From Cladopsammia gracilis (taxonomy: Eukaryota; Cnidaria; Anthozoa; Scleractinia; Dendrophylliidae): a DNA stretch of 64,000 nucleotides. The notes below the pieces were generated by a model that did not search any database, was not told the DNA's origin, and saw only the letters and a program-made list of their open reading frames with translations. Positions within the stretch are counted from its first letter, which is position 1, and every line of letters begins with the position of its first letter. Below are positions 2,976 through 50,750 of the stretch, one piece after another. The stretch is from NCBI GenBank assembly GCA_022457155.1, contig JAJGOT010000901.1:95271-159270 (forward strand), written 5' to 3'. Made by a program: the position numbers and the translations under genes.

Positions 2976-3992
2976 ATGGAGTATTTGCGCGTTTTTTCTC
3001 CGTGTCTTGACCGAGAAAAGCGTTGGTACATTTTTTATTCAAAATTGCCTCTTCTAAAGCCTTCGAAGTTTTCGAAGCGAGCAGTATTTGATAATTTTCC
3101 CGACGAGGTCAGGAAAGTTCGAGCTTCTCTTCTGACAACCGAGGATGGCCAGCCTTTATCGTCGGCAGCATGGTTTAAAAGTAAATACAAGGCAAATTTA
3201 GCCCTAGATCAGGAGGTGTACCTCGTGACATCTTTTGGCCTTTACATTGGCGTACTGAATCATAAGAACACTTTCGAGGTAAGCAAGGAATTCGATTTTT
3301 TTCGTGTGTTGCTGAATACATTCTGCCTCGACGATGTCCGCGCCAAAACAGCCAAATTGCCCGCCAAAATAATCGATGTGGCGCGCGCGGGAATGACTTC
3401 AGTCACACCATCGCAGAGTCCAACATTTGCGACCCTAGATTCCTTAAAACAGCAAATTGTTCAGCAGGAGAAATACATCGGAACTTTACAAAGGAATTTG
3501 GAGAACTCTAGCGAAAAAATCCAAAGGCTAGAAGCTCAACTTCGCGGCGAGTTTGCCAAGCAGAGGCCGGCAACTCAACCAGAACTTGCCAGACATGTCG
3601 AATTGACTTTGAAGGAAATTTCTGAGAGTAACCTCCTAACACCATTGGCGAAAAAGAAGAAAATGAATACCAAAGCGAGGAACGTTTTCAAAGAGCTTGG
3701 AGACGTAGCTGAGAGACATCGCGAAAGCCTGGCATCCATTTTAGGACATCTCGTATGCTGCGATAAAATCCCCGAAGCAAGGGATCTCCTTGGGGAAATC
3801 GCCGATATGGTTGCTCAGGAAAAGGGAGTCAAGGCGGCGGTGAAGGTTATCCTCTCAGAAGAAATCGTCCAAACCTTTTTGCAGTCAATGGCGGTACCAG
3901 ATTGGGTTTTGTTGTACTTTAAGATAAGTGCTCGTTTGCCTGATAACGCCTGGCAGATGCTGTTGAACTTGACTAAGCTTGGTGACACAAAG
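2976..3992 (+). CDS. Exon 1: N-terminal region with coiled coil
   Basis: 339 codons, phase 0, ending GACACAAAG before GTGAGG. Starts at ATG 2976; no better upstream start is in frame. Residues ~155-195 read as a coiled coil (LKQQIVQQEKYIGTLQRNLE). Residues 221-235 include a KKKK cluster that could be a nuclear signal. No recognised domain in residues 1-140. Confidence 0.75.
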
Positions 3993-6900
3993 GTGAGGTT
4001 GTTTATAAACTTACTTCGAGTTAAATTATTATCTTTCAGTGTCATGATTGTACAGTTCACAATTTAGTTAAAAAGTGCTGAGTCGATCCTTTTATATTTA
4101 TTATTAACTTTTATTCTTAACATGCAGTCTTTGCAATGCTGGTGCAGTCTGTTAAAATGAAACTTAACTTTATTTTAGTGGTTGTAACTGTTATAAGCTC
4201 TTAAAAAAATACTAATCTCACTGCAATTCATAAAGCTTCTAATAGCTATCTGATTTTTCTAACTCCTTGTCCCTAACTAGCTAAGTCCCACTTTAGAGCT
4301 TTAAGGGGGTTTTCCGATTTATTAGGACCTAATTCAGGGTTAGCAAATGTGAATATTTTGCTGACTCTCTTGTAATTCCTGCTGATCCCCCCCCAGGTCC
4401 TTATAAATGAAAGCCCCATAATATATATAGGTTGCCATCGAGACTATTTATACACTGATCTCCTCAGTAGATAATGTAAAATGCATAACTAATGTTGCAA
4501 ATTATGATAATCTTATACATATATTAATAATAATAATGTTGTCGTTGTTGTAGTTAATGTGTTATGTTTTGTTGTTTTCTAGAAAAATGAAGATGCTTCA
4601 TTGTTGTTGTCAAAAAATAAGATCAAGGCTGTTCGGAGGGTGGTTTTTAAGGTCGTCAAGAAAACATTCAGTGTTAGAGATTTACCTGACCCTGTGACTG
4701 GCAGCCAAGTGGATATGTCATCAGTTCTTGCATGGGCTATCAGAGAGCAGCGTCTTCACAAAGTGGACAAGGAGATTGTTGAAATAAACATTAAACTTGA
4801 TGGCAGGCCATTTTGGGGTTAGTATATATTTTTAGTACAGTTTATGTAAACCCTTGCCTGAGGCTCAGGTTTACATAAACTTTCAAATTTTCCCAAACTC
4901 TCTCTTGTGTTTGCATCAGGTTTTGTAAATAGGTGCACCATTTTCTATTTTTTAATATCTAAATTTAATAGGTTTTGTCATGATGAAGTTAATTCAATTC
5001 TTGCAAGCTAGAGTTATTTATGGTTATATAACCAACAGTTACAATATTTTTTGGATGCCTACCAGTCTGATAACAAACCTTATCCAGTTGAAGATCCTGC
5101 ATTTATTTAAACTTACCTGATCCCTCTTCTATAATAATACAATACAAATTTTATTTAATGCCCAGTCTGACTGAATGGCTCACTATGTTAATATATGATT
5201 TACCTGGCTTCTATAATGCTGAAACACCAGTTGTAAGTACCCATCGGATATAAGCCCCCGTAGTTATATTTGGCCCTAAAAACAGCCTTATATATACACA
5301 GGTAGTTGTTAGACTTGATAAGCTGTTAGTAGTTAGGACTTACAACTAGAATGTTACTTGTTATATTTTCCGTGTGCATTATATAACAACTAATCTTGAT
5401 TTTGCTAGGTAAAGACCAAGTTATGGTAGGTTTTGTCCCCATTGGGAACCCAAATCTTCCAGAACAGAGTGCTAAATCAGTTTACCCTCTAGCCATTGCA
5501 AACTGCAAGGAAGATAGGTGAAATACTGTGTTCATATTAAAAGTCATTATTAATATCAAATGCTGATAGCTTTTTTTAATATACCCTGGCTTGTAAAAAA
5601 GCCACCAGGATCTTGGCAATATGTCTGGATTCCCTGGCAAAATCCTGGTGGGATCCTGACCAGAAAATGAATGTCCTGGCATTTCCCGTCAGGATCCTAG
5701 CAAGAAATGGGATTCTCATCAGGATCCCGGCGGCATCCCGTTGGCCTTTTAAAAGGGCAAGCATTGCAGCCAATAATTTGTCTTAATTAGCCCTTATCAG
5801 TTGCAATTATCAGCAATAATTAACTTATTATAACCAAAAAACATCAAAATATTAATATATAAGGCACCGCATGGGTCTAAAATGACTCATGCAAGTAAAT
5901 GATTGTACATCATATGATAACTGAGAAGTTGCCTTAAGATAAACAAATTCTCCCAAAGGTATATTAAGAATTACTCAAGTGCTTCATCACTATATCTCAG
6001 GTTTGGTTACATTGAAATTATGACCTTGAATCAGCATGCATGCAAAATGTTGCCATATTTAAATTATTATCCCTTATACATGTACAAGCTACCTGAGGTA
6101 GCTATGTTTGATCTAACTTTTTATGACACAATTTTTATTATTCTTTAGGAACAACATACGGCGCCTTATGCAAGATTTGAATAGGCAGAAGGCTATTCTC
6201 AAAGATCGTGGACTGTTGGTAGATGGGAAGTTCTATAGATTCAAATTCACAGGTGAGGAATTTTAATTTTAAAAAAGATATTGTTTTGAATTATATTATA
6301 TAACAAACATGCTCACTGCAAATTCACTAATATCAAATGCGTCAATGTTTTTTAGCCACCTAGAAAAAGATGAATCCATCATATTTCTCATTCTGGATAA
6401 TGTACTGTATATAGTTTTTTACATTTGACTTAATCCTACAGACTGTATATATTATGTTTTACAGTTACTCTGGACTACAAGTCCCTTTTGCTTCTTACGG
6501 TGAAAAAAGACGATGATGATTTCCAGTTAGGTGGAAAAGGATATGGTGTTGAGTTTTGCTTATTCTGCACAGCCATAAGGGTATTTATTAATGAGTTATG
6601 TTATTGTTGTAGTTACTGGGGAGTATCACTGGTTTGCTAGGTGACGGGTGGTTTACTTATGTAAGCTTTAACTAGGTTCAGTATGTTTGGTTGGCCCCTT
6701 AGAGCCCTAGCTGTACCCCATTATAGTTTATATTCTGTGGAAAATAATTATATAGACCCCATCTTAGTTCATTTTTTTAAAAATGTTATCAAAACTTAGT
6801 GCCTGGACTTCTTGTTATGGCATTTTAAATATAAATTAATTTCAATGATTTAATCAATTGTTGTTAGTACTGTTGCAACACTAGCAACTTAATGTCATTT

Positions 6901-9900
6901 TCAAGGCCTGCCAGGTAAACTCTGACAGAGGGTTGGGTACCCCTAAAATTTAATTATTTATATGGTTAAAACTTTGACATGCCCGTCTGGATTTATGCTA
7001 CCATTTAGAAATGTAGATGCCCTAATTCTGATCCTCATGAGACATGTGTAACATGCTTCCTGGAAAGTAAAGGAAACATTGGAAAGTAAGTAGAACTATG
7101 ATAAATAGTAACAGTTATGGGTTTTATATCTCTGTCTCAGGTGCCACTCAGAAGGCACGCAGGTTGAAGAAGAAGCTACTGTTCATGCAGTCAGCATATA
7201 AATGAGAGTAACAATTGTTTATTAATTTGTCCTCAGTTGGAAGGGTCTCCGTGCACTACACTGCGAGATGCGGAACACTGAACAGGTCATTGGCTCTGTT
7301 GGACTGATGTCATACCGATGTAACGCATTGAACGAACTGAATGCTAAACTGTCAGGACTTGGACCAGGGACCTTTAAAGATAACTATGTGAAAATAAAGG
7401 AAAGAAAGGGACAAGAAACCTGTATCGATAGAAGCAATGTAAAAGTCAGCTCTATGTCAGGTAATAGCATGAGATGTTGATCTGATATTTTGTAACTTGT
7501 GAGAATTTATTAATGCCTATTTATCTCACCTGGGTGGTAAGACCCCTTCTTTACAAGTGTACTTATAGTAAATATCACCTTTTTACAGGTCCAACTGAGA
7601 GAAAATTCCTTCAAAACATTGAAGATGTGGTGAGAGCTGGACTACCTTTTACTAAAGTCAAGGAGTACTACAGCAATCGAGAAGTGGCGGAGGAATTCCT
7701 TCTGAACAAACTATCCTTTTGTGTTGAAGCCCAGAAGGTATTTAAATATGTATTATACTAATTGTTCCACATTAATTCAGTTGTCTTCTGAGAACATATT
7801 AATTATGTTGTTTTTAATCGCCCTTCCCCTTTTCCCCTCCCCCTCCTCCCTCCCCCTCCCAAGCTGTTAATTGAGGTACATTAATTTCTGAATGGCTCTC
7901 TTGGGTTGGTAATTCTGAGTGAGAAATAAATCAGCAATGCCATGCACTTGTTACTAGATTTAATAGCCTTCTTTTGATACATCAACATTAAACTTGATAG
8001 TGAGGCTTAGAGGGCATAAACAAAAGAAATGAATTAACATGGTTTTCCATTTCCTTTGTTTATTTCCTCTGGGCCTTACTATCAAGTTGAATTTTAATAT
8101 ATTGAAAGTAGCCTGTTGTTGTAATATCATGGGGAACTCTGGATTATTTAACCATCATCAAATCCATACTCTTAAACAAGTCAGTGCAGGGTTCTGGGAT
8201 GGTCCCTCATGCTGTTGGATAGGATATATAGTTTTTAGGGTTTTCTGTCTTGAACAGGATATATGGTCTTTAACAGGGTCTCTATTTTAGTTTCTTTTTT
8301 TATTAGGTTCATTCTTGTTACTTACTGAAACTGAAATCATCATTATATTATGACTGATCAGTTCAATAAAATGCTAATTTATTCAATGTATTTCTTTTAT
8401 TTTTTTAATTGAAGTTAAATTTTATTTTCTTGTATTGGGAGGTGACAGTATTCTTTCTTTACTTGATCATTATTTAGTTACTTAAAAATGTTGATATGCA
8501 AAACTTTGTGATATTGTTTTTAATATCCGAGTTGCAGTTTTTTCATGACATGCTCACTGATGGTTCCTTTCAATGAGATTACGGAACTCACCAAACTAAA
8601 GTCACCTTTACTAGATCAGGTCAGTAAAATCAAAATAGGTTATAAGGTAGGTAAGGCACACACAAGCCAAGATGGCCCACATGGCCAGAGTTTATCCCCA
8701 TTTCAGTAGCATAAATTAGCAACCTAGGAGTATTGCTACTTCCCCCTGGAGTACCAAATGGTACCCATTTAAACACATGACCTGGGTAGAGAGAGACAAT
8801 ATTTGTGAAGTCCACCTCCACTGTGAAACCATAATTTTCAATCTGCTGAACAAGTATCATGAGGATGATTTGAGTAAGATTAATTTACACCCATATTAAA
8901 TTTACTAATAATTAATATGTTCAGGAACTTTCCATATCACTGTATTTAAAAACAATACTGTGCTTTTGCAGATGCTTTTGGTCAACACATTGCTGCCCAA
9001 GCATCATTTTGGCAACAAAAGGAGCAAGCGATAGATCACGTGTTAACTGATTGTGATGGGAAGAAATTGATGGATGATAGACTTTTCAGTTTTGCAGCTG
9101 AAATTCACATTGAGCTGATGACATTGGTATGTGAGAAAAATCCCTATTTTAAAAGTAAACTTAATTAATGCTATAACATTTGAGATATCTTAAAATCCCT
9201 GTCCGATCACACTTTAATAAAAATGCACTTACTTTGGGGCAAGTAAGTGTAACTAAACAAGTGGAGTCTGTTAAACAATTAAATTTTCAATGTTTTAACT
9301 TAATGGGCTTCTTATAAACCATTCAAATTATCTCTCTCTAATTGTGTTCCTTTTCATTCTTTCTACAGATGGCCAAGCAGTGGAAGGAAATTGCCCTTGT
9401 TATGCGTGCCCAACAGTTCGATGAGAATGAAGACCTGGATATTGATATTTTTGATGTTCAGGTAAGAATTGAACCTCAAGTTAATATTATTCAGTGCAGT
9501 GAAACCCTGATTAGTGTTATTACGGACGCCGAAGAACCACAGAAATTTTCTTATTAAAAGGGTGTCTGTATGGGTTAGCATGAATTACAGAATTTATGCT
9601 TTGTATTATTTTTTTAAGAAGCTAATTATGGTTAATAAGCAAACTGACCCCACTAAAATGCTAACATTAGAACTGAAGAAACTTAGAAAATTCCTTTCAC
9701 CAAAACTGGCAGCATATGCGAAATTGCTGATGTTTATCTAAGTGCATTTGAATATTTTGACGACTAGAATTAGCTGTCCATATATAATAAGGAAGTGTTC
9801 TTATTAAGAAGGTGTCAGTAAAGTGAGGTTGGGGTGTATATTCAGTTCGGCCATCTATCCATCTGTCTGATTGTCCACCTGATCGCTTTTGAATCAATAA

Positions 9901-12265
9901 AACTTGTAATCTGTTCTATTTTAACTGTATAGTGCAAGCACTGGGGAATTGTCCTCAGGCACATCTTTGGAGTTTCACTTGGAACTGGGGATTATGGTCA
10001 TCTGACGATAGAGCATGCACCGATGCTAATGCGTCGCTTTCGATCAATGACCCGGTACTCAAATCAAGGCTTTGAAGCAGCCCATAAACTGCAACGGCAA
10101 CTATACTCCAGAGCAACAAACCATGACTGTCTAGTTCCAGCTTCATAATGTAAGTGGATAAGGTTATATATAACCGTTGTTAAGTTGGTTTACTTTACAC
10201 ATAAGTCATTCCCAAGATGGCAACTTACCATTTGTAAAAAGGATAACAGATGTTTTTGCTATTACGTTATGTTTTCATAGTTGCCTTCTCCTAAAACTGT
10301 TTTAATATGCATGAGTAACTAATAACTGACTGACTTAATTAAGATAAGCTGCCCCATGAAGCATTTGATAAGGTACTAATGGCGTGCTTATGTGGCATCA
10401 ATGTCATTAATTATTAAACGTAAATGCATGCATTTCTTTTCACAGTGGAAGACATCTTGGTTCACAGTTACTCTGAACGACTTCTTTCAGTGAGATACTC
10501 ATTCCGTCAAGCTAAAGAAACTCTCACATCTGCAGGTAGGTGAATTAGTTTCATTGTGTCCACGTGTGTGCATGTGTGCGTGGCGCTGCCCTCTCCTTTG
10601 TTTTTTATACCTATCAGTCATTTAATCCTCATGCTTCATTCTCATGCTTCATGCGCAGTTTATTTATGATTTATTTCACATATTCACAGTCTACTGAAAG
10701 AACTTTTCTTTCTTGTTCCCTTCTAAACAACTTTGATCCTCACCTGTTGGAATAATCATTTAATAAACCCTAATTTAGGTTTTTTTGGATGTACAACATG
10801 TTTATCTGCTAAACTTGCATGTTGCATAATTTGAGAGTATTTTTTTTTTTTGTTTAAAGGAAGACATTTCTATTACCGAGGTTGCGGGTGGAGAAAAAAA
10901 AGTGTGCAATGGACAGATAAGGATAAGGAATGGATAGAGAAAGTTAACGACCTGCTGGACATGATGCTTGGGCCAGACCATTTTGAGTACGAGCAGACGC
11001 TGGACACAAAGTACTGTGTTGTAGCGCCTCATTCCCAGCCGTCGTACGAGTACAATCACCAGAAGTGGGAAGAGCAGTTTACTTTGGTGGAAAAGGAAGA
11101 ATTGTCTCCCATGCCTTTCAAAACCCCCGAGCCTCCCAAAAAGATTCCAAAGCTGTGTATCACACCTGCAGTTAAGCGCACGTTGAAGTTGAATCAAGGA
11201 ACAGCGATGCAAGGGTCAACAGTGGTCAAGAAATTCATGCAACTGCCGAGCAAGAGTCCTATCCGTGTTCCTCGTGTTCCAGGGTGGGGTGGTACATACA
11301 GCAACGTGACGCTTGTCAACACTTGTCCGATTGATAACTTTCTTACCATTGTGTACCTTCGGTTGAAAGACGTTCCGCAGGCTTCAGCAAAACTATCAGG
11401 AATATCTGAATCCTGGGCCAAGGATTTGGTAGCTATAGAACGGCTGTTCGACCGGCATGAGTTTTCTCAGGGCAAGATAGAATGGTTGCGCCCTTTCCCG
11501 CAGTTCGACTTCAGTGCGACTGGTGGCACCATTGATGTTTGGGGAAATGAATTTGACCTATTCTGGCAACGTTGCAAATCGATGCTCAAAAGTGCTGCCA
11601 AGTCAACATGTTCTTCACAGCAGTGCCCTAAAAAGGACGAACTTCTGTCTGCAACTGGGATCAATCTTTCAGAGATTTCGACCCAGGCGTTGGCAGAGAC
11701 TTACATCGAAGCAGCTATAAGGGAATGGCAACTGCCGGCTCCTACCCAGTGTGGCAAAGAGTTTGCTAAACCACCACCTCCAACCGCCGATGCGATTCTC
11801 GGACCACCGCGCCTTGACATCTCCTCTGGTCATAGGTACCAGCCGTTTGTTTGTAATGGAGTACGTACCTTCACCCAGAGAACATTCCATCCTGAAATGC
11901 CATTTGCTTTACCGATTTCATTGCACCACTTCGCTTCCAACGGTCTAATTACCGAGCCCCATCAACTACCAGATACCTTAATTCTGCAAGGCAAACAGTA
12001 CCAACTGGGTGGATGTACATTCTGGAATGGCTTGCACTACAATGGGTGTTTCAAGTTCCAGTCACAGTGGTTCCATTATGATGGGCTACCAGAGAGCAGT
12101 TTCCGAGGTTCTGGTGTCCTAGCTACACCGCTTAAATCCATGAGATCACGTGGCTATGTACTTTCGTCGTGCGTGTACTTCGAGGTTTATTCACAGAAAG
12201 GTGGGGCTTTAATTCTAAATTTTACTTACAACATCTTTCCCAGAGTTCGTTTCTCCAGGTGGTAA
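2976..12265 (+). CDS. RAG1-like DDE transposase core fused to UCH-like cysteine peptidase (14 exons, probably decaying)
   Basis: Fourteen blocks join through canonical GT-AG introns into a protein of roughly 1350 residues. The first ~339 residues hold a coiled coil (about 155-195) and a KKKK cluster. The middle follows the order of the RAG1/Transib catalytic core: Asp in IKLDGR (codon 4799-4801), then a FYRFKF stretch, Asp in TLDYKS (6473-6475), a paired Cys FCLFC, ALHCE, RRFRSM and finally Glu in GFEAAHK (10074-10076). In RAG1 the same landmarks accompany D600, D708 and E962. The C-terminal exon has a Cys box NTCPIDN (Cys 11324-11326), a His box GLHYNG (His 12035-12037) and HYDG, as in ubiquitin-specific peptidases and USPL1-like enzymes. 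An in-frame TAA at 10146-10148 and a frame inconsistency around exon 9 argue that this copy is not intact. The family assignment rests on motif order read by eye. Confidence 0.6.
4583..4817 (+). CDS. Exon 2: contains putative first catalytic Asp
   Basis: Follows a TTGTTTTCTAG acceptor. The frame from exon 1 continues as KNEDASLLL and ends EINIKLDGRPFW before GTTAGT. The Asp of KLDGR aligns in order with RAG1 D600. Confidence 0.8.
5409..5517 (+). CDS. Exon 3
   Basis: Acceptor TTTTGCTAG, donor GTGAAAT. Encodes KDQVMVGFVPIGNPNLP followed by YPLAIANCKEDR, in frame with both neighbours (phase 1 in, phase 2 out). Confidence 0.78.
5580..5775. repeat. Degenerate GGATCCTGGC-type repeat in intron 3
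   Basis: Diverged, closely spaced CAGGATCC and CCTGGCA motifs recur seven or more times in both orientations. No coding sense. Confidence 0.5.
6149..6252 (+). CDS. Exon 4
   Basis: Too short to stand out as an open frame. Acceptor TTATTCTTTAG, donor GTGAGG. Encodes NNIRRLMQDLNRQKAILKD and ends YRFKFT, in phase with exons 3 and 5. Confidence 0.78.
6465..6580 (+). CDS. Exon 5: second catalytic Asp and CxxC
   Basis: Acceptor ATGTTTTACAG, donor GTATTT. Encodes TLDYKSLLLLTVKK and GYGVEFCLFCTAIR. The Asp and the following CxxC match the RAG1 order (GYDEKL, then YICTLCDATR). Confidence 0.78.
7009..7085 (+). CDS. Exon 6: Cys-rich
   Basis: Acceptor CTACCATTTAG, donor GTAAGTAG. Encodes KCRCPNSDPHETCVTCFLES. 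The extra Cys pairs (CRC and CVTC) extend the CxxC of exon 5 and may bind zinc. Confidence 0.75.
7237..7460 (+). CDS. Exon 7
   Basis: Acceptor TTTGTCCTCAG, donor GTAATAGC. Begins WKGLRALHCEMRNTEQVI; ALHCE parallels ALHCD in RAG1. In phase with exons 6 and 8. Confidence 0.78.
7589..7737 (+). CDS. Exon 8
   Basis: Acceptor CACCTTTTTACAG, donor GTATTT. Encodes PTERKFLQNIEDVVRAG through SFCVEAQK and ends in phase 0. Confidence 0.78.
7991..8088. mobile_element. Small foldback element in intron 8
   Basis: AACTTGATAGTGAGGC and a following AAACAAAAGAAATG block are mirrored as CATTTCCTTTGTTTA and GCCTTACTATCAAGTT after a ~17-bp loop. Imperfect hairpin, no coding sequence. Confidence 0.6.
8538..8619 (+). 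CDS. Exon 9: frame broken
   Basis: Lies between acceptor GAGTTGCAG and donor GTCAGT. In the frame inherited from exon 8 it reads FFHDMLTDGSFQ and then TGA. The second half is open only in the frame +1 (VPFNEITELTKLKSPLLDQ). The 82-nt length nevertheless leaves the phase that exon 10 needs, so the two halves appear separated by a small indel. Sequencing error, a missed micro-exon or a real mutation are all possible. Confidence 0.55.
8972..9126 (+). CDS. Exon 10
   Basis: Acceptor GTGCTTTTGCAG, donor GTATGTG. Encodes AFGQHIAAQASFWQQKEQAI through AAEIHIELMTL, entering in phase 1 and leaving in phase 0. Confidence 0.75.
9369..9461 (+). CDS. Exon 11
   Basis: 31 codons between TTCTTTCTACAG and GTAAGAATT: MAKQWKEIALVMRAQQFDEN and DLDIDIFDVQ. 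Phase 0 on both sides. Confidence 0.78.
9933..10149 (+). CDS. Exon 12: catalytic Glu and in-frame stop
   Basis: Acceptor ACTGTATAG, donor GTAAGTGG. Encodes CKHWGIVLRHIFGV, EHAPMLMRRFRSMTRYSNQG and FEAAHKLQRQLYSRATNHDC. The Glu of FEAAH (10074-10076) is the candidate third acidic residue. One codon before the donor there is an in-frame TAA (10146-10148). The phase then continues correctly into exon 13, so the stop looks like a point mutation inside a once-open frame. Confidence 0.75.
10446..10535 (+). CDS. Exon 13
   Basis: Acceptor TTCTTTTCACAG, donor GTAGGTG. Encodes EDILVHSYSERLLSVRYSFR and QAKETLTSA, in phase with exons 12 and 14. Confidence 0.75.
10860..12265 (+). CDS. Exon 14: UCH-like cysteine peptidase domain
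   Basis: Acceptor TTTAAAG. Begins RHFYYRGCGWRKKSVQW. A linker with Pro-rich KTPEPPKKIPK precedes a peptidase-like region: Cys box NTCPIDNFLTIVYLR, then ~235 residues later the His box FWNGLHYNGCFKF and WFHYDGL. Ubiquitin-specific peptidases have the same Cys-box, His-box and Tyr-Asp order. The stop used here is at 12263-12265. The frame after SSCVYFEVY looks like run-through and the natural end may be slightly earlier. Confidence 0.7.
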
Positions 12266-12421
12266 TCGAAATACCGGTACATGCTTATACTATTAGTTGT
12301 CGGGTTATAATTGGAACTCATATTACTATTGGAAATTTAAGATGCGTCACCTCCGCTTTTTTGTCAAAATACACCATCGCACGAATGGTTTTTGTTTCAC
12401 TGAGTGAGAGAGCTATAATTC

Positions 12422-13110
12422 ACTTCAGATAGAAATGTACATAGTTTAGAGTTTTATGCACGTGCTTTTATGGGTGTGTCGCCTGTTAAAAGGAGCGATC
12501 GGGTGGGTCGCCTTCGCTTAGTGCAGACAAACTTTGTAAACTGTGTATGTTTTGTGTTTTTTTTCTTTTTCAACTAATAATGAAGTACACTTCTGGAAAA
12601 CTTCATGTGTTAAATCTTCATTTCGGGTGGGCCTTCATCCCGGTTAAGCATGTACTTATAACATTTATCACTGAGTTCTTTTGAGAGAAATGTAGGTGAT
12701 GAAACCACGGCTAAAGTTCCTTTGTGTTCGTGCTTTTCTGGGTGTGTCGCCTGGTAAGGCAAGCGATCGGGTGAGTCGCCTTCGCTGAGTGCAAGGAAAC
12801 TTTGTTTGCTGTGTGTATTTTGTGAGTAATGTTCTACAAGTAACGAAATCTTAAAAACCATAGATTAAGAAATAGTCTAGAAAACGTTATTTGACGGTTA
12901 AGTTGAATTTGTACTTCGGGTGGGGTTTGTTAGGTTTGCATTTCAACAATATCTTCTAACTTATTTTACTCAGTTCTTTAGTGAGAAATATAGGTGATGC
13001 AGCCATGGCCCAAGTTCTTTTTCTGCACGCGCTTTTCTGGGTGTGTCGCCTGGTAAGGCAAGCGATCGGGTGAGTCGCCTTCGCTTAGTGTATGAATGTT
13101 CACCGCATAA
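12422..13110. repeat. Three tandem ~270-300 bp repeats with a conserved 50-bp core
   Basis: Each unit has an AGTTCTTTTGAGAGAAAT-like start, a TAGGTGATG motif and a core from GGGTGTGTCGCC to GTCGCCTTCGCT. The cores begin at 12472, 12740 and 13039. Within each core AAGCGA and TCGCTT can pair, and AAGGC and GCCTT can pair. The cores are far better conserved than the rest of the unit. Function unknown. Confidence 0.75.
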
Positions 13111-13270
13111 AACCTACATTCGCAGTAACGAACATATCAATCTACGCAGCCGTGAGTAGAATTTCATTTTCAATCAATTTCCAGTGCTAACTTTTGTTTC
13201 TTTTTTTTTCTACACAGGATGAAACTGAATACTTCACAGGCCTTTTCTAGAAGGCACAGATCTTCCGGCC

Positions 13271-13540
13271 CTGACCTAAATATTAGTATGGTCAACTCTC
13301 TCTTAAGCGACCACCCTTGGTCGCTTAAGAGAGAGTTGACCGTACTAATATTTAGGTCAACTCTCTCTTAAGCGACCACCCTTGGTGCAGGAAAAAGTGG
13401 TCGCTTAAGGGAGGTGGTCGCTTAAGAGAAACATCAATTTGAAACAGTATTTGGCTGAGAAGCAAATTGGTTATTTCAAAAGTGGTCGCTTACGAAAAGT
13501 GGTCCTAAGAGGGTGGTCGTTAAGAGAGAGTTGACTGTAT
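13271..13540. mobile_element. Foldback repeat built on GGTCGCTTAAGAGAGAGTTG
   Basis: A palindrome centred near 13315 joins CCTAAATATTAG and its reverse complement through two opposed copies of the GTCGCTTAAGAGAGAGTTGA motif. Three more diverged copies follow to 13540. No open frame. Confidence 0.75.
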
Positions 13541-15041
13541 TAAAAGTTTCATTGCCTTCAAAGTCATTTCCCCCAGAACAACAAATGACCAGAATTCTCT
13601 CGGGGTCAAGATACTTTTTTTTATTTCAGTCCCTTTCTTCAGTATAGTTTTGTTCCGAAACAAACTATACCCTACACAGTTTTTATTTGTTGGAGGTGCA
13701 GACTGAATAGAAAATTTATGTTACAGTGAAGTCTTTTGGACGTAAAAACGTAGTTGGAATTTTCCGCACCCGGAACCTTGCAGTAGATTTGGCCACCAAA
13801 TCAACTCCAACTCGCGTGTCGCCCGTCCCTCTTTTTCCTTGCACACGACCTTGCTCATGGAAGTTGGACGCTTCTGTAGACTACTTATAAAATCTGCTGT
13901 CGTCTATAACTTAGATGTTAATCGGTGTCAAGATTCGCCCTCAAGGTCTTCTTCGGCATCCGAGTCATCATCTTCGCACAGTTCCTCCAATACATCTTTT
14001 GTACAGTCGTGAAATTGACCATCCTGTCCCGGCTCTTTGTAGTGTGTTGTTACGAGTGTCTTGATTAACGTAATTTTTGTAAAAAAATAAAAAATAAAGA
14101 CATTGAATCGTCAAGTTCGCGAAATTTAATTCCCTGCAAACACAATTTTTGTCCCCGATCGCGAAATTAAAGACTCGCGAAAATAAAGGAGAATAAGGTA
14201 CTACTAACCTCACCCCCCCCCCCCCCTCCCCATGGGATATTTATATTTTTTTCTTCTAGTTACTTCAAAAGAGTAAGTTCACGAATATAATGTATTTCAA
14301 AAACATTTTAGTGGAAAGAAGTTACCAAAATACAATCATGATCATTTTTTTGTTGAACAAGACAGACGCTTGCAATTGACTGAGCCATGACAGTTTACTA
14401 AAAGGTGACTTGTGTTTAAAAATCCTCTCGAAATGTTAATTCATTATTCTAAATTTTGATGTTTTCTTACAATTTGGGGGCCTCGGTGGATAAATGGGTA
14501 CCGGCGACGTAAGCAATACTCCTGGGTGCCTCATGCTACATAAACCGAGACTTTATCTTTCAAATTGTCACTCCTTCGCTTGAAGGCTATGAGGGATATG
14601 GTCTATTTACAATTTGTCAATTAATTGTGGCTCCCTCACCCAGAATTACGTAATTGTTTTATCCTTTCAAAACAACGTGTCCTAGGAACCGAAATATCGG
14701 TCTCCGGCAACTAAAGAGTTAAGGCAACGCTTCATGCAACTTGTTGAGCAATTTTGAATTGACACAAAAAATGCCCAGTGCAACATACCTTGAAACGAAC
14801 ATGTCTCACAACGACTTTATTGCCGCAATCGTCGCGAAAAATAGAACCCGGTACTCATTTCTCGCAACGATTGCAATTTGTTTTAAAAACTTACTTGGGG
14901 CCTGGGGACGTAAAAAACGTTACACGATATTTTGACATGCGAGCGACTGGTCGGAAAAATGAATAAAAAAGATGCGGCGATCGTCTGACATGGTTTACTA
15001 AGACTACAGACAGTATAATGCCGAGTACTAAATAAGCTTAC
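13541..15041. other. Intergenic, nothing assignable; poly-C at 14211-14227
   Basis: No convincing gene was found. A poly-C run sits near 14211-14227. Two short overlapping frames (14741-14966) look incidental because their shared sequence is AT-rich and has no recognised protein match by eye. Confidence 0.5.
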
Positions 15042-15353
15042 CTGGCAAAGCAGGATGAAGAGCTTCTCCAATGCGCTCTGTTAAAGAAGTTAGCCATGAA
15101 TTGTACGCATCGAGCCTCGAGGGGCTAATCTTTTTCGGTTCGGGCAAAGAAACTGTATCTCCTGAACTGTCGAGGAAATTCAAACGCCTTGCAGCGACGG
15201 TCAGTCCGTGTTTCGCGAGACCGTGTTTTAAAGTTGTCCTTGAAGACTTGAAACAGCGGTGACATGATGGACACTTTACATTGCAATTAAATCTGAAACA
15301 CGCGTGTTGCGAAACTTTCAACTCGTGACTAGTAAAATTTGACTCGTGGAAAA
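15042..15353 (-). CDS. Exon with a C2H2 zinc finger
   Basis: On the minus strand an acceptor TTTTATTCTAG precedes, and a GTAAGCTT donor follows, an open block of ~104 codons. It contains CPSCHRCF...LKHGLAKH with spacing C-x2-C-x12-H-x4-H, a standard C2H2 finger. A Pro-Glu-Pro-Lys linker and a helical SWLTSLTERIGEAL segment follow. It is probably an internal exon of a gene transcribed leftward. No partner exon was found with confidence, so it could also be a relic. Confidence 0.5.
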
Positions 15354-15988
15354 CTAGAATAAAAACTTGATGAGGTTTGCGGTTGAAATTGATTATGTAG
15401 TAAAGTTAAAGAAATCACGACACTTTAAAAGTTCATGGAAACGTGACCTGTTGATCTTCAGCCGATAACAAACTGATTATTGAACGGGAAATATGATCAT
15501 TGTTGTTGAAGCAAGCCTGAAAGTATGGTGATTACGGATTACATGTAAAAGCTAGAATGTACCAGTGTACTTCGTGATTTCCGCCAAGAATATCGTAGAA
15601 AACTAGTGCCTCCCAACACCTTGCATTTACGTGGGATATGTTGATGTAAATGCCCAGGTTACGCGTAGTTCTACAGGAATTTCGTATGTATTGTGCTTAC
15701 GTCTTAATTAAGTTGTTTACCAGAATAGAAACCTCATATATTCTCTTGTATATTTAATCACGTATAGCTAACCAACAATATGTATATAAGGACATTGATT
15801 TAGCAATAAAGCAAAAGATAGTTTAGTGTGATCATACACAAGTTGAGCCGTGTCCTGACTGACCAACCAAGGCGTTGCAAGCAGTCGATGCTTATCTGCG
15901 AATTCGGCCACTATACCTCCCGTTTACAACAATTAGTAACTGGTACTTTGGAGTTCACCGGCAATAGCAATTTTTCACGAGAAAGAGA

Positions 15989-17062
15989 ATGGATCAGACA
16001 ACTAAACAAGGAGTAAAAAGAGAAAGGCACTCTAAGGAGGATAAGAAAAAATATAGAAAGAGAAGAAAACTCAGGCAGAAAGAAGCAAAAAAAACCTCGC
16101 AGGTAAAAGAGTCGGCGGTCGTCGCTGTGGTGACACCAAAATCAGTAAGAATACCGGAAGTCTCTACTTGTTCGAGAGCCCACAGCATCGTCAAAATGGC
16201 AGTAAGTAGAAATCGTCATTCTACGTTCCTTACTCCAAATCTGCGATCGGCTTTACTTCCTAGTAAAAGAAGTACTCGGTCGTTTTTAGCAAACCACCAG
16301 CCGAAGACAACGGTACCAGAATTGAACCGCTCTTTGCTGTCTTCCCCTGATGGGAAAGAAGTCGTGCTGGGAGAAGGAACGTACGGTGTAACTCGCCATA
16401 TGTACTTTCACGGCAATTTTCCTGTCGCTGTTAAAGAGTTCAAAATGAACAACATGTATGAGGTCAAGAAAGAGGCAGGAGTTATATGCGAGCTGCAGCA
16501 ACAACATCATCCAAACTTGCCTTTCATTTTGGGGGTTTGTATGAAAGAAAAGCCTTATTTAATGGTAACACAATTTTATGGTAAGGCCAAAAAGTCTTTT
16601 CCCTTAAATAAGGCAGTCGAGCGTGCAATAATCGAATTCGACAAAATGGGAAATATTTTTAAGCAAATTGTTGATGCTATTAACTTCATTCACGAAGCTG
16701 GTTGGCTGCACAACGATATTAAAGAAAACAATGTCTTAATGCACAGAACACCCCTGGAGTGGAAACCAGTCGTAATTGATTTTGGAAAAAGCAGACAACG
16801 CTCAAACCCAAAGCGGTATGAACCAACGGAGGTTCAAAAAGATTTTTACAAGCGTAAACACCCGTGGATTGCCCCTGAGCTTATCGAAGGCACACATGCC
16901 CAGTCGCCGGCAAGTGACGTCTCCTCGTTAGGAGTTCTGTTGCAAAAGATGTTGGGCAAGTTTGTCCGACTTAATGTTTCCTTAGAAAGCCTAAGCAGCA
17001 GATGTCTTTCCCGTTATCCGCATCTCAGGATATCCCTCAAACAACTTAAGGGTGAACTGTAA
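15989..17062 (+). CDS. Intronless protein kinase-like gene, 357 aa
   Basis: The N-terminal ~40 residues are strongly basic (KKKYRKRRKLRQKEAKK), a likely nuclear signal. The kinase domain has all core motifs: glycine loop GEGTYGV (128-134), VAVKE with Lys149, catalytic loop HNDIKENN (241-248; HND in place of HRD), DFG (264-266), APE (295-297) and the helix-F Asp in SDVSSLG (310). The domain is compact and ends soon after the helix-I region. Substrate unknown. ATG 15989 lies in front of the basic stretch and is the first in-frame start. The absence of introns suggests a retrocopy origin or a lineage-specific intronless family. The last ~360 bp are tandemly duplicated downstream. Confidence 0.8.
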   Translation: MDQTTKQGVKRERHSKEDKKKYRKRRKLRQKEAKKTSQVKESAVVAVVTPKSVRIPEVSTCSRAHSIVKMAVSRNRHSTFLTPNLRSALLPSKRSTRSFLANHQPKTTVPELNRSLLSSPDGKEVVLGEGTYGVTRHMYFHGNFPVAVKEFKMNNMYEVKKEAGVICELQQQHHPNLPFILGVCMKEKPYLMVTQFYGKAKKSFPLNKAVERAIIEFDKMGNIFKQIVDAINFIHEAGWLHNDIKENNVLMHRTPLEWKPVVIDFGKSRQRSNPKRYEPTEVQKDFYKRKHPWIAPELIEGTHAQSPASDVSSLGVLLQKMLGKFVRLNVSLESLSSRCLSRYPHLRISLKQLKGEL

Positions 17063-17118
17063 ACTCTATTTTTATAACTAGTTAAATGGCAAGAAACCGT
17101 ATACGAGAATCCCACTGC

Positions 17119-17534
17119 TTGGCTGCACAACGATATTAAAGAAAACAATGTCTTAATGCACAGAACACCCCTGGAGTGGAAACCAGTCGTAATTGATTTT
17201 GAAAAAGCAGACAACGCTCAAACCCAAATCGGTATGAACTAACGGAGGTTCAAAAAGATTTTTACAAGCGTAAACACCCGTGGATTGCCCCTGAGCTTAT
17301 CGAAGGCACACATGCCCAGTCGCCGGCAAGTGACGTCTTCTCGTTAGGAGTTCTGTTGCAAAAGATGTTGGGCAAGTTTGTCCGACTTAATGTTTCCTTA
17401 GAAAGCCTAAGCAGCAGATGTCTTTCCCGTTATCCGCATCTCAGGATATCCCTCAAACAACTTAAGGGTGAACTGTAAACTCTATTTTTATAACTAGTTA
17501 AATGGCAAGAAACCGTATACGAGAATCCCACTGC
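17119..17534 (+). pseudogene. Tandem 3' copy 1 of the kinase gene, frameshifted
   Basis: Repeats the kinase sequence from WLHNDIKEN to beyond the stop. It joins at the short shared word TTGGCTGC. One G is lost in the DFG codon region (GATTTTGAAAAAG versus GATTTTGGAAAAAG), which breaks the frame. There is no glycine loop or start. Confidence 0.92.
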
Positions 17535-17950
17535 TTGGCTGCACAACGATATTAAAGAAAACAATGTCTTAATGCACAGAACACCCCTGGAGTGGAAACC
17601 AGTCGTAATTGATTTTGAAAAAGCAGACAACGCTCAAACCCAAATCGGTATGAACTAACGGAGGTTCAAAAAGATTTTTACAAGCGTAAACACCCGTGGA
17701 TTGCCCCTGAGCTTATCGAAGGCACACATGCCCAGTCGCCGGCAAGTGACGTCTTCTCGTTAGGAGTTCTGTTGCAAAAGATGTTGGGCAAGTTTGTCCG
17801 ACTTAATGTTTCCTTAGAAAGCCTAAGCAGCAGATGTCTTTCCCGTTATCCGCATCTCAGGATATCCCTCAAACAACTTAAGGGTGAACTGTAAACTCTA
17901 TTTTTATAACTAGTTAAATGGCAAGAAACCGTATACGAGAATCCCACTGC
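17535..17950 (+). pseudogene. Tandem 3' copy 2 of the kinase gene, frameshifted
   Basis: A further 416-bp copy carrying the same missing G and the same base changes as the first duplicate. It was therefore copied from that duplicate, not from the gene. Confidence 0.92.
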
Positions 17951-18017
17951 TTGTACGCTGGATCCTTGACCCGATCCTTGAGGATCTGCTTAAGCCAAAA
18001 AATATATATATATATCT

Positions 18018-18288
18018 ACAATGGAGGTCATTAGTGTTGGGACACTTACCAAAAAACTAGTCAAGTAATTCCCCCCCCCCCCCCCCCCAACCCCCCTTGC
18101 AATGTTGAAATTTAATGATCGAACGGACATTTACGCCGAAAAAATATTCACTTACTTTGGTCAACATTGCTTTGGGGGGGAAAGGGGGGGATACGCTCAA
18201 ATTGCGGCCACAAAGATAACTGTAGCAGTATTACATTATTATTTGTTAACTTTTCACAGGTGTCCCAGCTACTTTTGTCCTCCATTGT
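18018..18288. mobile_element. TIR element ACAATGGAGG, copy 1
   Basis: Starts ACAATGGAGGTC and ends CCTCCATTGT. An inner GTGTTGGGACAC is opposed by GTGTCCC near the far end. Contains a poly-C tract and a G-rich run. Nearly identical to 19457-19724. No coding sequence and no clear target duplication. Confidence 0.8.
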
Positions 18289-19456
18289 CTCAAACAGATT
18301 TTTTGAAAAAAACAGGTTTGTCGCTTGAAAAAAAGCCTTTAGCACAATGATTAGAGAGCCGGTGGTGGTAGTAGGTGCGGAAAGTGATAAATGAACGTTA
18401 TGACTTTAGTTTTGGGTCATATAAAGCACAATTTTTGGGTGTTTTTAAATTCAAAATACAAGGATCGCATTCCGTTAACTTTGTATAGTTTGTTTTTGGG
18501 ACATAAGAAGCGCAAATATGAAACTGTTCGTATTACTGATCTAAAAAAACTGCCTGTATGATGAAAAAAGTGTATTTTTGCACTAGCAGTACCTTTTCAA
18601 AGACAAATACATCTTAATGTTGAAAAGATACGCATTTTTATTAGAACCGGAAGTGCCGTGTCAACAATACTTACATTACTCACCACATTACTCACCACAT
18701 TACTCACACCAATTTTCAAGCCTAACAACGGAAAATACGCGCGTTTACTGAATTTTTCTATAGCAATATATGAGAAATAGTTTATTCAATGTGGTTACAT
18801 TTAAATTTCTCGAAAAGTTGTGGAATTTTCTTATTTTATCAACATTACTCACTGATAACCAAGAAGAGAAGTATTTGATTTGTTGTTTACTTTAACGCTA
18901 ATATGCCGAGTATTGTGGAAAATCGAATAAAACGTGCACTACTGATACAGACTACCTCAGTAAACAATTCTTCTAACAAGGTTGAAACATTTGAACTACT
19001 TTCGTTAGCAATCTTTCGGTGCTACAGCGAGAAAAAGCAAAAAATGTTGGTGAGTATTGTTGCCGAGTAGTGTTCTCATTACTCATTATTGATGACGCAT
19101 CACGTGCGCGACTTTAACTCCGGTTTCAAATATCCTGTAAGCTAAAATATTTCATTCTCGTTCATAGAAAACAAAACTCTTTCAATGGAAGCGTGAATTT
19201 ACGCTCATAGAGACATCAAATAGTGCGTTGAAAAACTAAAGAACGATGGCATTTTATCAAACCAAGAACTGGTCCGTCGCAATATGAGTTACATATAACT
19301 TACCCACCCCTCCCCCCAATTTTTGGTTATGTCACACATTTCATTCTAATGCCAAACACCCTCATACACAGTTAACCTATTACAGCTTCACTACACACGC
19401 AATATTTGGTTAGTTTCTAGCATAAATGAGCAATTTCAACAGACAGACACATTCAG
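18289..19456. other. Unassigned sequence between two TIR copies
   Basis: No gene seen. CACATTACTCAC is repeated several times around 18670-18712. A poly-C/T-rich patch lies near 19303. Confidence 0.5.
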
Positions 19457-19724
19457 ACAATGGAGGTCATTAGTGTTGGGACACTTACCAAAAAACTAGT
19501 CAAATAATTCCCCCCCCCCCCCCAACCCCCCTTGCAATGTTGAAATTTAATGATCGAACGGACATTTACGCCGAAAAAATATTCACTTACTTTGGTCAAC
19601 ATTGCTTTGGGGGGGGAAAGGGGGGGATACGCTCAAATTGCGGCCACAAAGATAACTGTAGCAGTATTACATTATTATTTGTTAACTTTTCACAGGTGTC
19701 CCAGCTACTTTTGTCCTCCATTGT
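19457..19724. mobile_element. TIR element ACAATGGAGG, copy 2
   Basis: Same orientation and almost the same sequence as 18018-18288; the main difference is a shorter poly-C tract. Confidence 0.8.
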
Positions 19725-19970
19725 ACCTGGATTTTTGAAAACGATATCGCTCCAAGTAAGCGTTTGTGAGCGTTCTTGGCCTTGTTTTTAATATAAAGGT
19801 ATAAAATATAATAGATTGTTGCTAGTCATTTTTTTCGCTCGCAATTGCTCCCTTTTCCTCTTCTCTCTCTTCTCTGTCATTTTCGGGCTGATCGGGCTCA
19901 TAAAAACCCTTGTTTGGGCTAGTTGCAGTGAAATTGCGTAAATTTTCATTGAACACGTTTTGAAAAATTC

Positions 19971-19973
<3 letters not shown>

Positions 19974-20061
<88 letters not shown>
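19974..20061. repeat. (TA)n microsatellite
   Basis: About 88 bp of uninterrupted TA repeats, directly adjoining the end of a Penelope-like fragment. Confidence 0.97.
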
Positions 20062-20065
<4 letters not shown>

Positions 20066-20510
20066 TTTAAAACAAAGCTGAAAACAGCGTATATTTTGTT
20101 TGGTGCAATATTTCAGCTGGCCAGACCAGCCTTCTTCAGGTATAAGATGTTACTAAATTAATAATATGTTATACGATGTTATATACATACAAAGAGAGTT
20201 TCACAATACAGAAAAATGAAGTCAGAATACAGGATATGACGAAATCGGAAACTAAGACGAAAAGTATTACATTTCATCACTTTTGTTCATGCCGTGTGGC
20301 TCTAAAGTATTACCTTTATAGATAAGATGTGATTCCCTAGCTTTACGTATCGAGTCACGGGAATTGTTAATAGTTTCTAAAGGAATTAGTTGCATGTCGG
20401 AGTTAGAATGGTTAGAATTAGAGAGAAAATGTTCTGCAGCAGTAGTAACCAGTAGTAGGTTTAGTTTTGATGTTAGTTTTGTCAACTGACCGTCTATATA
20501 AACAGCGAGT
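20062..20510 (-). mobile_element. 3' fragment of a Penelope-like element (GIY-YIG end)
   Basis: On the minus strand 20267-20485 encodes AAEHFLSNSNHSNSDMQLIP and RKARESHLIYKGNTLEPHG, which match the C-terminal part of the GIY-YIG endonuclease of Penelope-like elements (EHFN..HS..D..., then a KxRE...I..F.T..GMN end). Downstream is a CAGCTGGCCAGACCAGCC block and then the TA repeat. The reverse transcriptase part is absent, so this is a truncated copy. Confidence 0.65.
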
Positions 20511-21173
20511 GCATTGTATCATATAAATGGACTTCTAGTAAAGTTTTATATTCTGTTTTTATCCCTTTTCTATTGAAACTGTGCCCGCGGCTGCCGGGCA
20601 TTTAGCCACAGCGTTTTCCGCTTTTGTTTGTTATTGTACGTTGAGATTTTAAATAAATTGGTTTGATTGCATGCACAACTCGTTTTTCGTAGACTAGCTA
20701 ATAAACCGTTGACAGGTTAAGCCGCATAAATCTTGATAAGCGGTCACGAAAGGAGACTCGCATTTCAGTAAAAGTATGGTTTCAAACTGTCAACGGTGTA
20801 CGCCTTGATGAACTCGAACAATAGCCATTTAGTCACATGGGGGATGAATTTTCCCCCATATTTTGGTTGCTAAGGGCTGCGGCTCGCCATGTTGCCCACC
20901 CCCTTAAATCATGCCGGTCTGCTATAAGAAGCGGAAACGTTTGTATTTGTTATTAGTTACAGTTGAAAACGCTACACTCGAAAAAATAAGAAATGATATA
21001 GTTTCTTGAAAAATCGTTAAAAAATGCGTTATAATTATTTAGTTTAAGAATTGTCCAAAATGAATAAATAAGTGAATACTGCATATAATGAGAATCAAAC
21101 TTTTCTTAACTGTCTTTATTTTATTCATTCCAGCTTTCTCTGGTTGGAAGGCCATTCCATTCCAAAAATTACT
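20511..21173. other. Unassigned sequence
   Basis: No gene or complete element recognised. Confidence 0.5.
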
Positions 21174-24420: not shown

Positions 24421-25515
24421 GTGTTCATCACGAGCCCGCCAGCCAAAGGACATAGTGTTGTTAAACCAGATGGTACGCAAAAGGCTTCGCGGCGAATGGT
24501 CTCCAACTGTCTCATATCTTTTTCCCACAACTGCTGGATTTCATCCTGGCTTAGTCAGACGGCTTTATTTGGTCTTTGACTTTTGCCTGCGCGACGTTCT
24601 GTCTTCTCAATTTTGGAAGACAAAGCTTCTCTGTCTGTGGAAAATTGTATGTCTGTAAGTTCCTTGTCCACGTAAAAAAAACGGTCAATGCTTCTGAACA
24701 GTGAAGTTAGCCGTATCAGGCTAAAACGTCTCCGTTTTGTTTATGTACTTTTAAAACAAAGTGAGCTAAAATCTTGTCCAGTTTTTGTGGTTGTATGTCG
24801 TCCAGTCGTTTACAGATTTGGCCCATCTGCAAAACACATTAAGGTCACTTGTTGTCTTTTTGGTTGTATTTTCAGGCATATGATGCCCAATTTAGGATGT
24901 TAGCTCCATTGTACACCTCCATTGTATTGGGTAAAATTATTTATTCTAATATATTTTATGCTATTGTTTTCTATTGTATTGTCGTTCTTTTGTGTTCTAA
25001 TATTCTATTGTTTTAATAAAAGAACAAGAGGCTACAGTGATAGCCTATGCTCATGCGCTTGCATAAGCAAGTTTTAGAGTTTATTTTAACTGCGTCACGC
25101 ACCCCTTCCCACTCAACGAATTTTGCGTGACATGTAAGTCTTGTTTTATTTACATAATATCAGATATCATTTATTACAACTGAATTTGAACACGTTTTAT
25201 AAGCATTTCTCCAAAATTAGCGAGAACACAAAGAAAAAGTCAATCACAAATTGATATCAATATAAATTCCCATCGAAAAATGTAATTACTTTTCCGGTAA
25301 AGTCCAAATGCTAGAGGCTTGACTCGGCTATTTGAAAACAAGAACGTGATTACGGGCACGCCGAAATCACGAGGTCGCGTGTCAACCAATCAGACCAGTG
25401 AAAGTCGTCCCGCGGGATACGGGAAACTTAAAAAAAAAACAAGGCAATTTTTGACTACGAAAAGAAACTCGCTCAAAACCTAGACTCCTGCCGCTGCGCG
25501 CATGAGTAATTAACA

Positions 25516-26626: not shown

Positions 26627-27977
26627 GTCACAGTTTGGGGTTCCATCCACAGACTCAAAAGTAGAACCGCCTTGTACAGCATAATAAACAGTACCACAGA
26701 AAAGTGCTGCTCAATAGCTTTCAATTGAATGGTCACACTTTAGGATTTCCGACATCCACAGACTCAAAAGTTTCAAACTATCACGATGAACATCATAATA
26801 AACCACATAAAAATACTGTTTGAATACATATGTACTCACTCCGTGTAGGATTTCTTCCACAGACTCAAAAGTTAGAACCACCTTGTACAGCATAATAAAC
26901 AGTACCTGCACAGAAAAGTACTGCTCAATAGCTTTCATTCGAATGGTCCCACTTTAGGATTTCTTCCACAGACTCAAAAGTTAGAACCACCTTGCACAGG
27001 AAAGTACTGCTCAATAGCTTTCATTTGAATGGTCGATCGCACTTCAGGATATCATCCACAGACTCAAAGTTAGAACCACCTTGTGCAGTATATAAAACAG
27101 TAGCACCGGAAGATACTGCTTAGTGGCTTTCAATAAACAGTACCACAGGAAAGAACTACTCAATAGTTTTCACTTGAAGGTTCGCACCTTGAGATTTCAA
27201 CCACAGACTCAAAAGTTAGAACCACATTTTACAGCATAATAAACAGCACCACAGGAAAGTACTCCTCCGTAGCTTTCATTTGAATGGTCACACTTTAGGA
27301 TTTCATCTACAGACACAAAAGTTAGAACCACCTTGTACAGCATAATAAACAGCACCACAGGAAAGTACTGCTCAGTAGCTTTCATTTGAATGGTCACACT
27401 TTAGGATTTCATCCACAGACTCAAAAGTTAGAACCACCTTGTATAGCATAATAAACATTACCACAGGAAAGTACTGCTCAATAGCTTTCATTTGAATGGT
27501 CACACTTTAAAGGATTTCATCCACAGACTCAAAAGTTAGAACCACCTTGTACAGCATAATAAACAGTACCACAGCAAAGTACTGCTCAGTAGCTTTCATT
27601 TGAATGGTCACACTTTAAAGGATTTCATCCACAGACTCAAAAGTTAGAACCACCTTGTACAGCATAATAAACAGTACCACAGGAAAGTACTGCTCAGTAG
27701 CTTTCATTTGAATGGTCACACTTTAAAGGATTTCATCCACAGACTCAAAAGTTAGAACCACCTTGTACAGCATAATAAACAGTACCACAGGAAAGTACTG
27801 CTCAGTAGCTTTCATTTGAACGGTCACACTTTAAAGGATTTCATCCACAGACTCAAAAGTTAGAACCACCTTGTACAGCATAATAAACAGTACCACAGGA
27901 AAGTACTGCTCAGTAGCTTTCATTTGAATGGTCACACTTTAAAGGATTTCATCCACAGACTCAAAAGTTAGAACCAC
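26627..27977. repeat. 108-bp satellite array
   Basis: About a dozen tandem units, each containing CCACAGACTCAAAAGTTAGA and GTACAGCATAATAAACAGTA. The central units are spaced exactly 108 bp and nearly identical; the edge units are diverged, as expected for unequal exchange. Isolated partial units occur at 28630-28720, 32830-33180, 34450-34540 and 36360-36420. Mirrored at 50751-52101. Confidence 0.95.
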
Positions 27978-50403: not shown

Positions 50404-50750
50404 CCCAATATGATAGGATCCCTATATGGTGTGTTACAATGAAGTATATACCCATTTCTGAGCTGTTATCATTCCGTACTTCATGGTCTTCGTTACACGA
50501 GACGTATTTGACAATATTGAACAATATATCGGCTCAGAGCCCATGCAGCAAAAGACAGTATTATTCACGAAAAACACTGCTAAAATCGAGAAAGAGCTAG
50601 TGGAAGCTAAATAAGACTTTCAGTTTTAAAGGTATTTTTAATAACAATAAGGCAAAGTAGGAAAGTATAATATATCGTGTGGATGAGCAATATTTAGAAA
50701 CTCAATGATATCTTTCTAAGACAAATTGTTTGCGAGTTTAAAACGTGGTT

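Follow-up and report, generated by a model that had tools for sequence, protein, structure and literature searches.

The stretch of DNA analyzed here (the window; 64,000 nucleotides of the coral Cladopsammia gracilis) contains a decayed, dead copy of a coral-type gene that probably belongs to a cnidarian multi-copy family in which a RAG1/Transib-type DDE recombinase is fused to a ubiquitin-specific protease (USP) domain. RAG1, the antibody-gene recombinase, derives from a transposase and has Transib and RAGL as its best-known mobile relatives. A first-pass annotation of the sequence had read the gene as a RAG1-like core joined to a ubiquitin-hydrolase-type peptidase, and our analysis supports this reading for both halves. 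Beyond this, we lean slightly toward viewing the family as a cnidarian RAG1/Transib lineage that is distinct from Transib, RAGL, and the tested EnSpm type and that carries exchangeable deconjugating peptidases, either USP or Ulp1/SENP-type depending on the subfamily.

A decayed gene of 14 exons

The whole gene occupies positions 2976..12265 of the + strand, on which all features described below are located. Joined in consistent phase, its 14 exons give a single frame of 1357 codons and a stop codon, and all 13 introns have AG/GT borders. Since the splice sites were picked by the AG/GT rule, this model demonstrates consistency and is no independent test; an independent check comes from the Oculina protein P0001, whose tblastn pieces land on the window exons in order and which shares 73% identity with the window gene across the core region. 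We call the window copy non-intact because codons 690 and 859 are in-frame stops and because 17 residues of P0001 directly upstream of the ALHCE motif are absent from it (judged by eye).

Exon 1 (2976..3992) encodes an N-terminal region to which no fold was assigned and which includes a coiled-coil-like stretch (weak coiled-coil Pfam matches, below cut-off); by eye, similar N-termini are found in P0012, P0013, P0015, P0017, and P0018. Conservation and the joined frame place the start of the RNase H core in exon 2 (4583..4817), with KLDGR and the candidate first catalytic Asp (codon 4799). Exons 3 to 11 and exon 13 are placed by their matches to P0001, supplemented by conservation for exon 5 and by the joined frame for exons 5, 6, 7, and 9. 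Exon 3 (5409..5517; 82% to P0001) and exon 4 (6149..6252; RFKF) continue the core, followed by exon 5 (6465..6580) with TLDYKS, the candidate second catalytic Asp (codon 6473), and the CxxC landmark, here CLFC (6557, 6566). An additional Cys-rich stretch (KCRCPNSDPHETCVTCF) forms exon 6 (7009..7085), while ALHCE (H codon 7259), preceded by the 17-residue gap, lies in exon 7 (7237..7460) and the insertion domain in exon 8 (7589..7737). The first of the two stops falls into exon 9 (8538..8619), which is followed by exon 10 (8972..9126) and exon 11 (9369..9461). Exon 12 (9933..10149) shows the RAG1 spacing and holds HxxxxH (codons 9999, 10014), the candidate catalytic Glu within FEAAHK (codon 10074), and the second stop near its 3' end. 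The core ends over exon 13 (10446..10535) and the first part of exon 14 (10860..12265), in which the C-terminal stretch GRHFYYRGCGW runs on into a predicted USP-fold domain (11255..12196; model residues 133-446, placed by predicted fold and the joined frame).

Copies and element ends

The flanking TIRs starting with CACWRTG that the first-pass annotation had led us to look for did not materialize, as neither CACWRTG nor CAYWGTG occurs in the flanks (1-2976, 12265-21000) of this old, rearranged copy. Nor did this locus yield a CAC-start TIR pair with an exact duplication of 3-5 bp, and the number of CAC-start pairs (14 bases, at most 4 mismatches, 2-5 bases duplicated exactly) stays within what 10 other placements across the window gave. 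A 294-bp inverted repeat around a C1227 fragment (L041) was not accepted as an end belonging to the family; with its inner edge inside exon 14 (window 11837), it looks like a captured fragment. A search of viral contigs gave 7 pattern matches and no relative.

The nearest copies are duplicates of ~90-96% identity that include a neighboring kinase gene, which adjoins the family gene in the window, in both C141 copies, and in C561. We rejected this kinase as element cargo because these loci look like one duplicated segment. Such joint duplication, together with the 14 exons and the lack of detected TIRs at the window locus, would suit a host-owned family of domesticated recombinase-isopeptidase genes that arose by segmental duplication and lost their mobility. 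We nevertheless judge this explanation unlikely, given the many match rows in the genome (several with internal stops), the divergent copies of 40-66% identity at many loci, and the conservation of the core's candidate active-site residues.

Kinship of the core

Plain sequence searches were dropped as a route to kinship, as no Pfam model passed its cut-off and no PDB sequence did better than E 0.7 for either the core or the USP tail. The RAG1 model PF12940 gave no match in P0001-P0004 at E<=5, and none of its seven RAG1-like matches in the genome falls at loci of the fusion family. The RAG1 likeness proposed from the letters alone was instead supported by the predicted core structure of P0001. 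Foldseek and VIA-align put RAG1 at the top for this model, and the transposase families that follow are ProtoRAG and HzTransib. This predicted fold covers mouse RAG1 470-1008 at 15-18% identity in structural alignments, in a model with a mean pLDDT of 56.5 and middling values in the candidate catalytic blocks (65 for residues 81-90, 57 for 161-170, 50 for 491-500, and 61 for 521-530). As modeled, the core is an RNase H fold with a RAG1-type insertion and has its best structural match in RAG1/Transib.

The sequence-profile similarity of the core to RAG1 likewise exceeds controls, with a score of 43.4 for a RAG1 profile against the family profile compared to a maximum of 23.6 in 200 shuffles. 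This RAG1 set comprises 7 sequences, one of seven genome fragments (L055) having been excluded since, once translated, it did not appear to resemble RAG1, and the score depends on the alignment, amounting to 32.5 with two misplaced fragments (best of 100 shuffles, 24.9) and to 43.4 once re-aligned. A comparison with the single mouse RAG1 sequence (P 0.03-0.05; score 24.5 vs a maximum of 23.3 in 60 shuffles) was dropped as proof of kinship, being too weak on its own.

All seven landmarks listed by the first-pass annotation (KLDGR, RFKF, TLDYKS, CxxC, ALHCE, RRFR, and FEAAHK) are present on the coding strand inside the gene. Of the proposed parallels to the order in RAG1, RRFR is misleading, as it precedes the Glu here but follows E962 in RAG1. 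The spacing of HxxxxH and Glu in exon 12 (5 and 20 residues) is the same as in RAG1. Among homologues, the positions of both Asp, CxxC, HxxxxH, and Glu are conserved, and the acidic triad is kept with the sole exception of a Gln in place of the first Asp in P0004. The first and second Asp are paired with D600 and D708, respectively, by where they sit in the structural model rather than by sequence alignment; hhalign did not align the first to D600 and did not surely align the second to D708. The core appears to combine acidic D, D, and E residues with the C2 and H2 zinc ligands expected of the RAG1/Transib superfamily.

The core might alternatively derive from another CMCT lineage (Chapaev, Mirage, Plavaka, ESTA, Lanisha, or a divergent EnSpm), so that its likeness to RAG1 would reflect a shared CMCT signature. 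According to Kojima 2025 (PMC12730594), C(2)C and H(3-4)H occur in all CMCT lineages, and Kapitonov and Koonin 2015 (PMC4411706) place Chapaev within the Transib superfamily. CMC transposases are absent among the structural matches listed for the P0001 core, meaning that the fold search compared none. Of the CMCT transposons, the profile comparison covered the EnSpm type, with a set taken from the same genome, and this set's score of 22.1 against the family lies inside the shuffled null (up to 24.9), as opposed to the 43.4 of the RAG1 profile. This is a weak negative, since RAG1 itself goes undetected by the EnSpm-type profile (18.5) although both share the CxxC/HxxxxH signature. None of the 56 genome matches of PF02992 (Transposase_21) falls at fusion-family loci, and neither the window gene nor P0001-P0004 has one. 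No profile among the RAG1 set, the EnSpm-type set, and Pfam placed the core in another DDE family. We regard an origin from another CMCT lineage as unlikely.

Two types of peptidase tail

The last exon is predicted to adopt a USP (C19) fold in which Cys, His, and Asp are conserved; these triad candidates (Cys codon 11324, His 12035, and Asp 12080) were called by motif and conservation, not by structural superposition. Four finger-type Cys are found at 11609, 11624, 11750, and 11852. All matches listed for the tail are USP-fold chains, with USP18, USP12/46, and USP35 near the top. The first-pass annotation was right about a peptidase with Cys and His boxes of the ubiquitin-hydrolase type, but its UCH-like (C12) assignment gives way to USP among the matches listed.

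In sister copies, an Ulp1/SENP-like tail takes the position of the USP domain at the same junction. Yeast Ulp1 was the top PDB match for five of five fetched tail exons, a result that gives no frequency because these copies were chosen for tail exons matching the USP exon in their first part only. The tail of Actinostola P0011 matches SENP2 at 2.2e-5, and Pfam C48 remained under its cut-off for the Ulp1-like tails. Further USP-tailed rows of the genome are located in C141 (two), C561, C1227, C408, and C996. A tree built from 21 rows over 162 columns does not unite the USP tails in one clade, and the octocoral USP row P0004 groups with P0010 (support 91) and with the Ulp1-tailed C1087 (74); tails may have been exchanged more than once. 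An artefactual joining of two adjacent genes is very improbable even though repeat gene models are often chimeric, as P0014 and P0019 appear to be, because a single open frame in exon 14 spans the USP domain and the conserved end of the core, the same core end runs into the Ulp1-like tail at five other loci, and joined core-peptidase models exist in three named anthozoans including an octocoral.

Possible function and significance

An intact member of the proposed recombinase-USP family would bind its own element at the ends, cut the adjoining DNA by nick and hairpin like RAG1 and Transib, and reinsert the excised element. The tail may strip the transposase, or host proteins nearby, of ubiquitin or SUMO, and this deconjugation could spare the transposase complex from degradation or silencing. 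Two deconjugating-peptidase folds in the same position suggest that the selected function is the removal of ubiquitin-like modifiers rather than action on one exact substrate and that such elements fight host modification of their transposase. If the family is indeed a lineage with exchangeable peptidases, RAG1-type recombinases outside the vertebrate line would have been pressed to shed ubiquitin or SUMO, an idea that deserves testing because the N-terminus of vertebrate RAG1 carries a RING ubiquitin ligase. As a branch of its own with this predicted fold, the cnidarian family would also supply an outgroup for the story of RAG1 origins.

Some CMC transposons carry cysteine peptidases. Among the titles and abstracts found, with subscription journals and Repbase outside the scope of the search, none described a transposase of the RAG1/Transib type that carries a USP or SENP tail. 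The association of a RAG1-type core with a deubiquitinase-like domain seems an unusual partnership that bears on the evolution of RAG1-type enzymes.

Comparison with known systems

The window tail resembles USP (C19) peptidases in its predicted fold, NTC Cys box, HY His box, YDG Asp, and four finger-type Cys, but differs by an identity of 8-14% in the listed alignments, the lack of a Pfam match, and its linkage to a transposase-type core. Ulp1/SENP (C48) peptidases resemble the tails of sister copies, whereas the window copy has the USP domain instead. The signature residues are common to the family and to CMC (EnSpm/CACTA, Mirage, Chapaev) and Plavaka/ESTA transposons (PMC12730594), but the EnSpm-type set shows no profile similarity to the family over the null. 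Unlike Transib (HzTransib), for which CACWRTG ends would be expected, the window gene has 14 exons, an N-terminal coiled-coil-like stretch, and a C-terminal isopeptidase-like domain. From RAG1, RAGL, and ProtoRAG, the family is set apart by the missing PF12940 match, the peptidase tail, and the low identity noted above, yet it shares with them the predicted fold, CxxC, the ALHC motif, and HxxxxH and Glu at equal spacing.

Gene structure and copies

Joining the 14 exons between 2976 and 12265 (+), as the first-pass annotation had suggested, yielded one phase-consistent reading frame, 1357 codons long before the terminal stop, and all 13 introns have AG/GT borders; in-frame stops interrupt the frame at codons 690 and 859. 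This copy (the window is C651:95271-159270 of an 878-Mb genome) also lacks 17 residues ahead of ALHCE that are present in the Oculina relative P0001, and it is a relic. P0001 itself, a gene model of 1043 residues whose N-terminus begins after most of exon 1, has neither the stops nor the gap. Three protein searches gave a total of 36 relatives, and all 15 that carry an organism name are from Anthozoa (Oculina patagonica, Actinostola, Paramuricea clavata, Porites lobata, and Desmophyllum pertusum). One relative matching the USP-tail exon, P0023, represents 178 member sequences in public data, which may reflect recent amplification in some species.

Within the genome we found 94 match rows for the tail exon and 48 for core/tail exons, where rows count exons rather than copies and some pairs resemble two haplotypes. 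We infer that the family is mobile from its many copies, their decay, and a core of the transposase type; at the window locus, neither flanking TIRs, for which a search had been suggested, nor a target duplication was found. The closest copies are duplicates that include a protein kinase gene at 15968-17062 (+; Pkinase, 4.4e-26), which accompanies the transposase gene on contigs C141 and C561; two repeats of its 3' part lie downstream of it in the window (17197-17475 and 17613-17891). The C141 and C561 duplicates are missing the 2.6 kb at 12392-14989, which has ATGGTTT at both borders and contains repeats found on many contigs (13896-14182 and 13356-13539). Elsewhere, 294-bp inverted repeats of 99% identity bound the stretch L041 1100-7027 (contig C1227) and enclose fragments about 98% equal to window 8375-11837, perhaps a captured gene fragment; in L042 the same 294-bp repeat holds a MITE-like insert. 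Inverted recurrences about 23-28 kb apart in the window (25017-25305 and 53417-53705; 26852-27926 and 50739-51870) include arrays whose repeat unit measures about 106-108 bp, and may mark a large inverted repeat.

Fusion of the core to exchangeable tails

The proposed joining of a transposase core to a ubiquitin-hydrolase-type peptidase was borne out, the peptidase being of the USP type: the conserved core end, FYYRGCGW, and the USP stretch share one exon of the window copy. Gene models of Oculina, Paramuricea, and Desmophyllum (the last partial) carry the same fusion. In five further copies, chosen because the tail exon matched in its first part only, the same core end runs on into a different tail (5/5), both lying within a single open frame that spans 500-664 aa, with yeast Ulp1 as best PDB match (E values of 5.3e-4 for C1104, 0.0085 for C1231, 0.0064 for C649, 1.9e-5 for C1087, and 9.7e-4 for C263). 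Pfam C48 was matched below cut-off by three of these five, and the tail of Actinostola P0011 matched SENP2 (2.2e-5). Judged by sequence, this genome also has the USP-type stretch outside the RAG1-like family, since at C707 (L050) and C598 (L051) a different N-terminal region precedes it in frame.

Kinship of the core

According to Kojima 2025 (PMC12730594), C(2)C and H(3-4)H occur in all CMCT lineages, and we therefore compared the family with RAG1-like fragments and with Transposase_21 (EnSpm-type) ORFs, both from the same genome. A profile of mouse RAG1 and six of seven genome fragments scored 43.4 against the family (P 1.1e-4), where 200 column shuffles never exceeded 23.6 and the reversed control gave 14.6; this upholds the suggested kinship with RAG1. 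An earlier, partly misaligned RAG1-like alignment had scored 32.5. The EnSpm-type profile (6 sequences) reached 22.1, inside its shuffled range (40 shuffles, up to 24.9), a negative of limited weight because RAG1 itself scores only 18.5 against that profile. Of the other CMCT lineages, the comparison covered the EnSpm type; Chapaev is placed within the Transib superfamily by Kapitonov and Koonin (PMC4411706). Seven PF12940 matches (L052-L058) are decayed RAG1-like sequences elsewhere in the genome, apart from the family.

Catalytic pattern and proposed mechanism

Counting alignment rows with a letter at each position, the second Asp is conserved in 16/16, the CxxC cysteines in 15/15 and 14/14, and the first Asp in 13/14 (Gln in octocoral P0004). 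HxxxxH and the Glu are each conserved in 11/12, the exception being the Porites model P0016, from which the region is seemingly absent. In the P0001 model, the candidate first Asp lies in strand 77-89 and the second at the end of strand 154-164; their putative pairing with D600 and D708 rests on this placement, with middling confidence at the catalytic stretches. At a low posterior cut-off, hhalign paired CxxC with RAG1 CTLC and ALHCEMRN with ALHCDIGN; later runs with more RAG1-like rows retained the CxxC pairing and lost that of ALHC.

RAG1 and Transib cut DNA through nicks and hairpins. By analogy, intact proteins of the family would cut at element ends in this way and then join these ends to new DNA, and the tail would take ubiquitin or SUMO off the transposase or off host proteins located at the cut. 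The strongest hint that modifier removal is the tail's function is that USP-like and Ulp1-like tails occupy the same junction. Our verdict is a family with a RAG1/Transib-type core, in a lineage without match to the RAG1 model, and with exchangeable isopeptidase-like tails; no earlier description was found in the literature searched, to which Repbase and subscription journals did not belong. From HxxxxH to the Glu, the core pairs gap-free with RAG1 (hhalign), and the family's spacing of 5 from H to H and 20 from H to E equals that measured on the PDB sequence of RAG1 (residues 937, 942, and 962).
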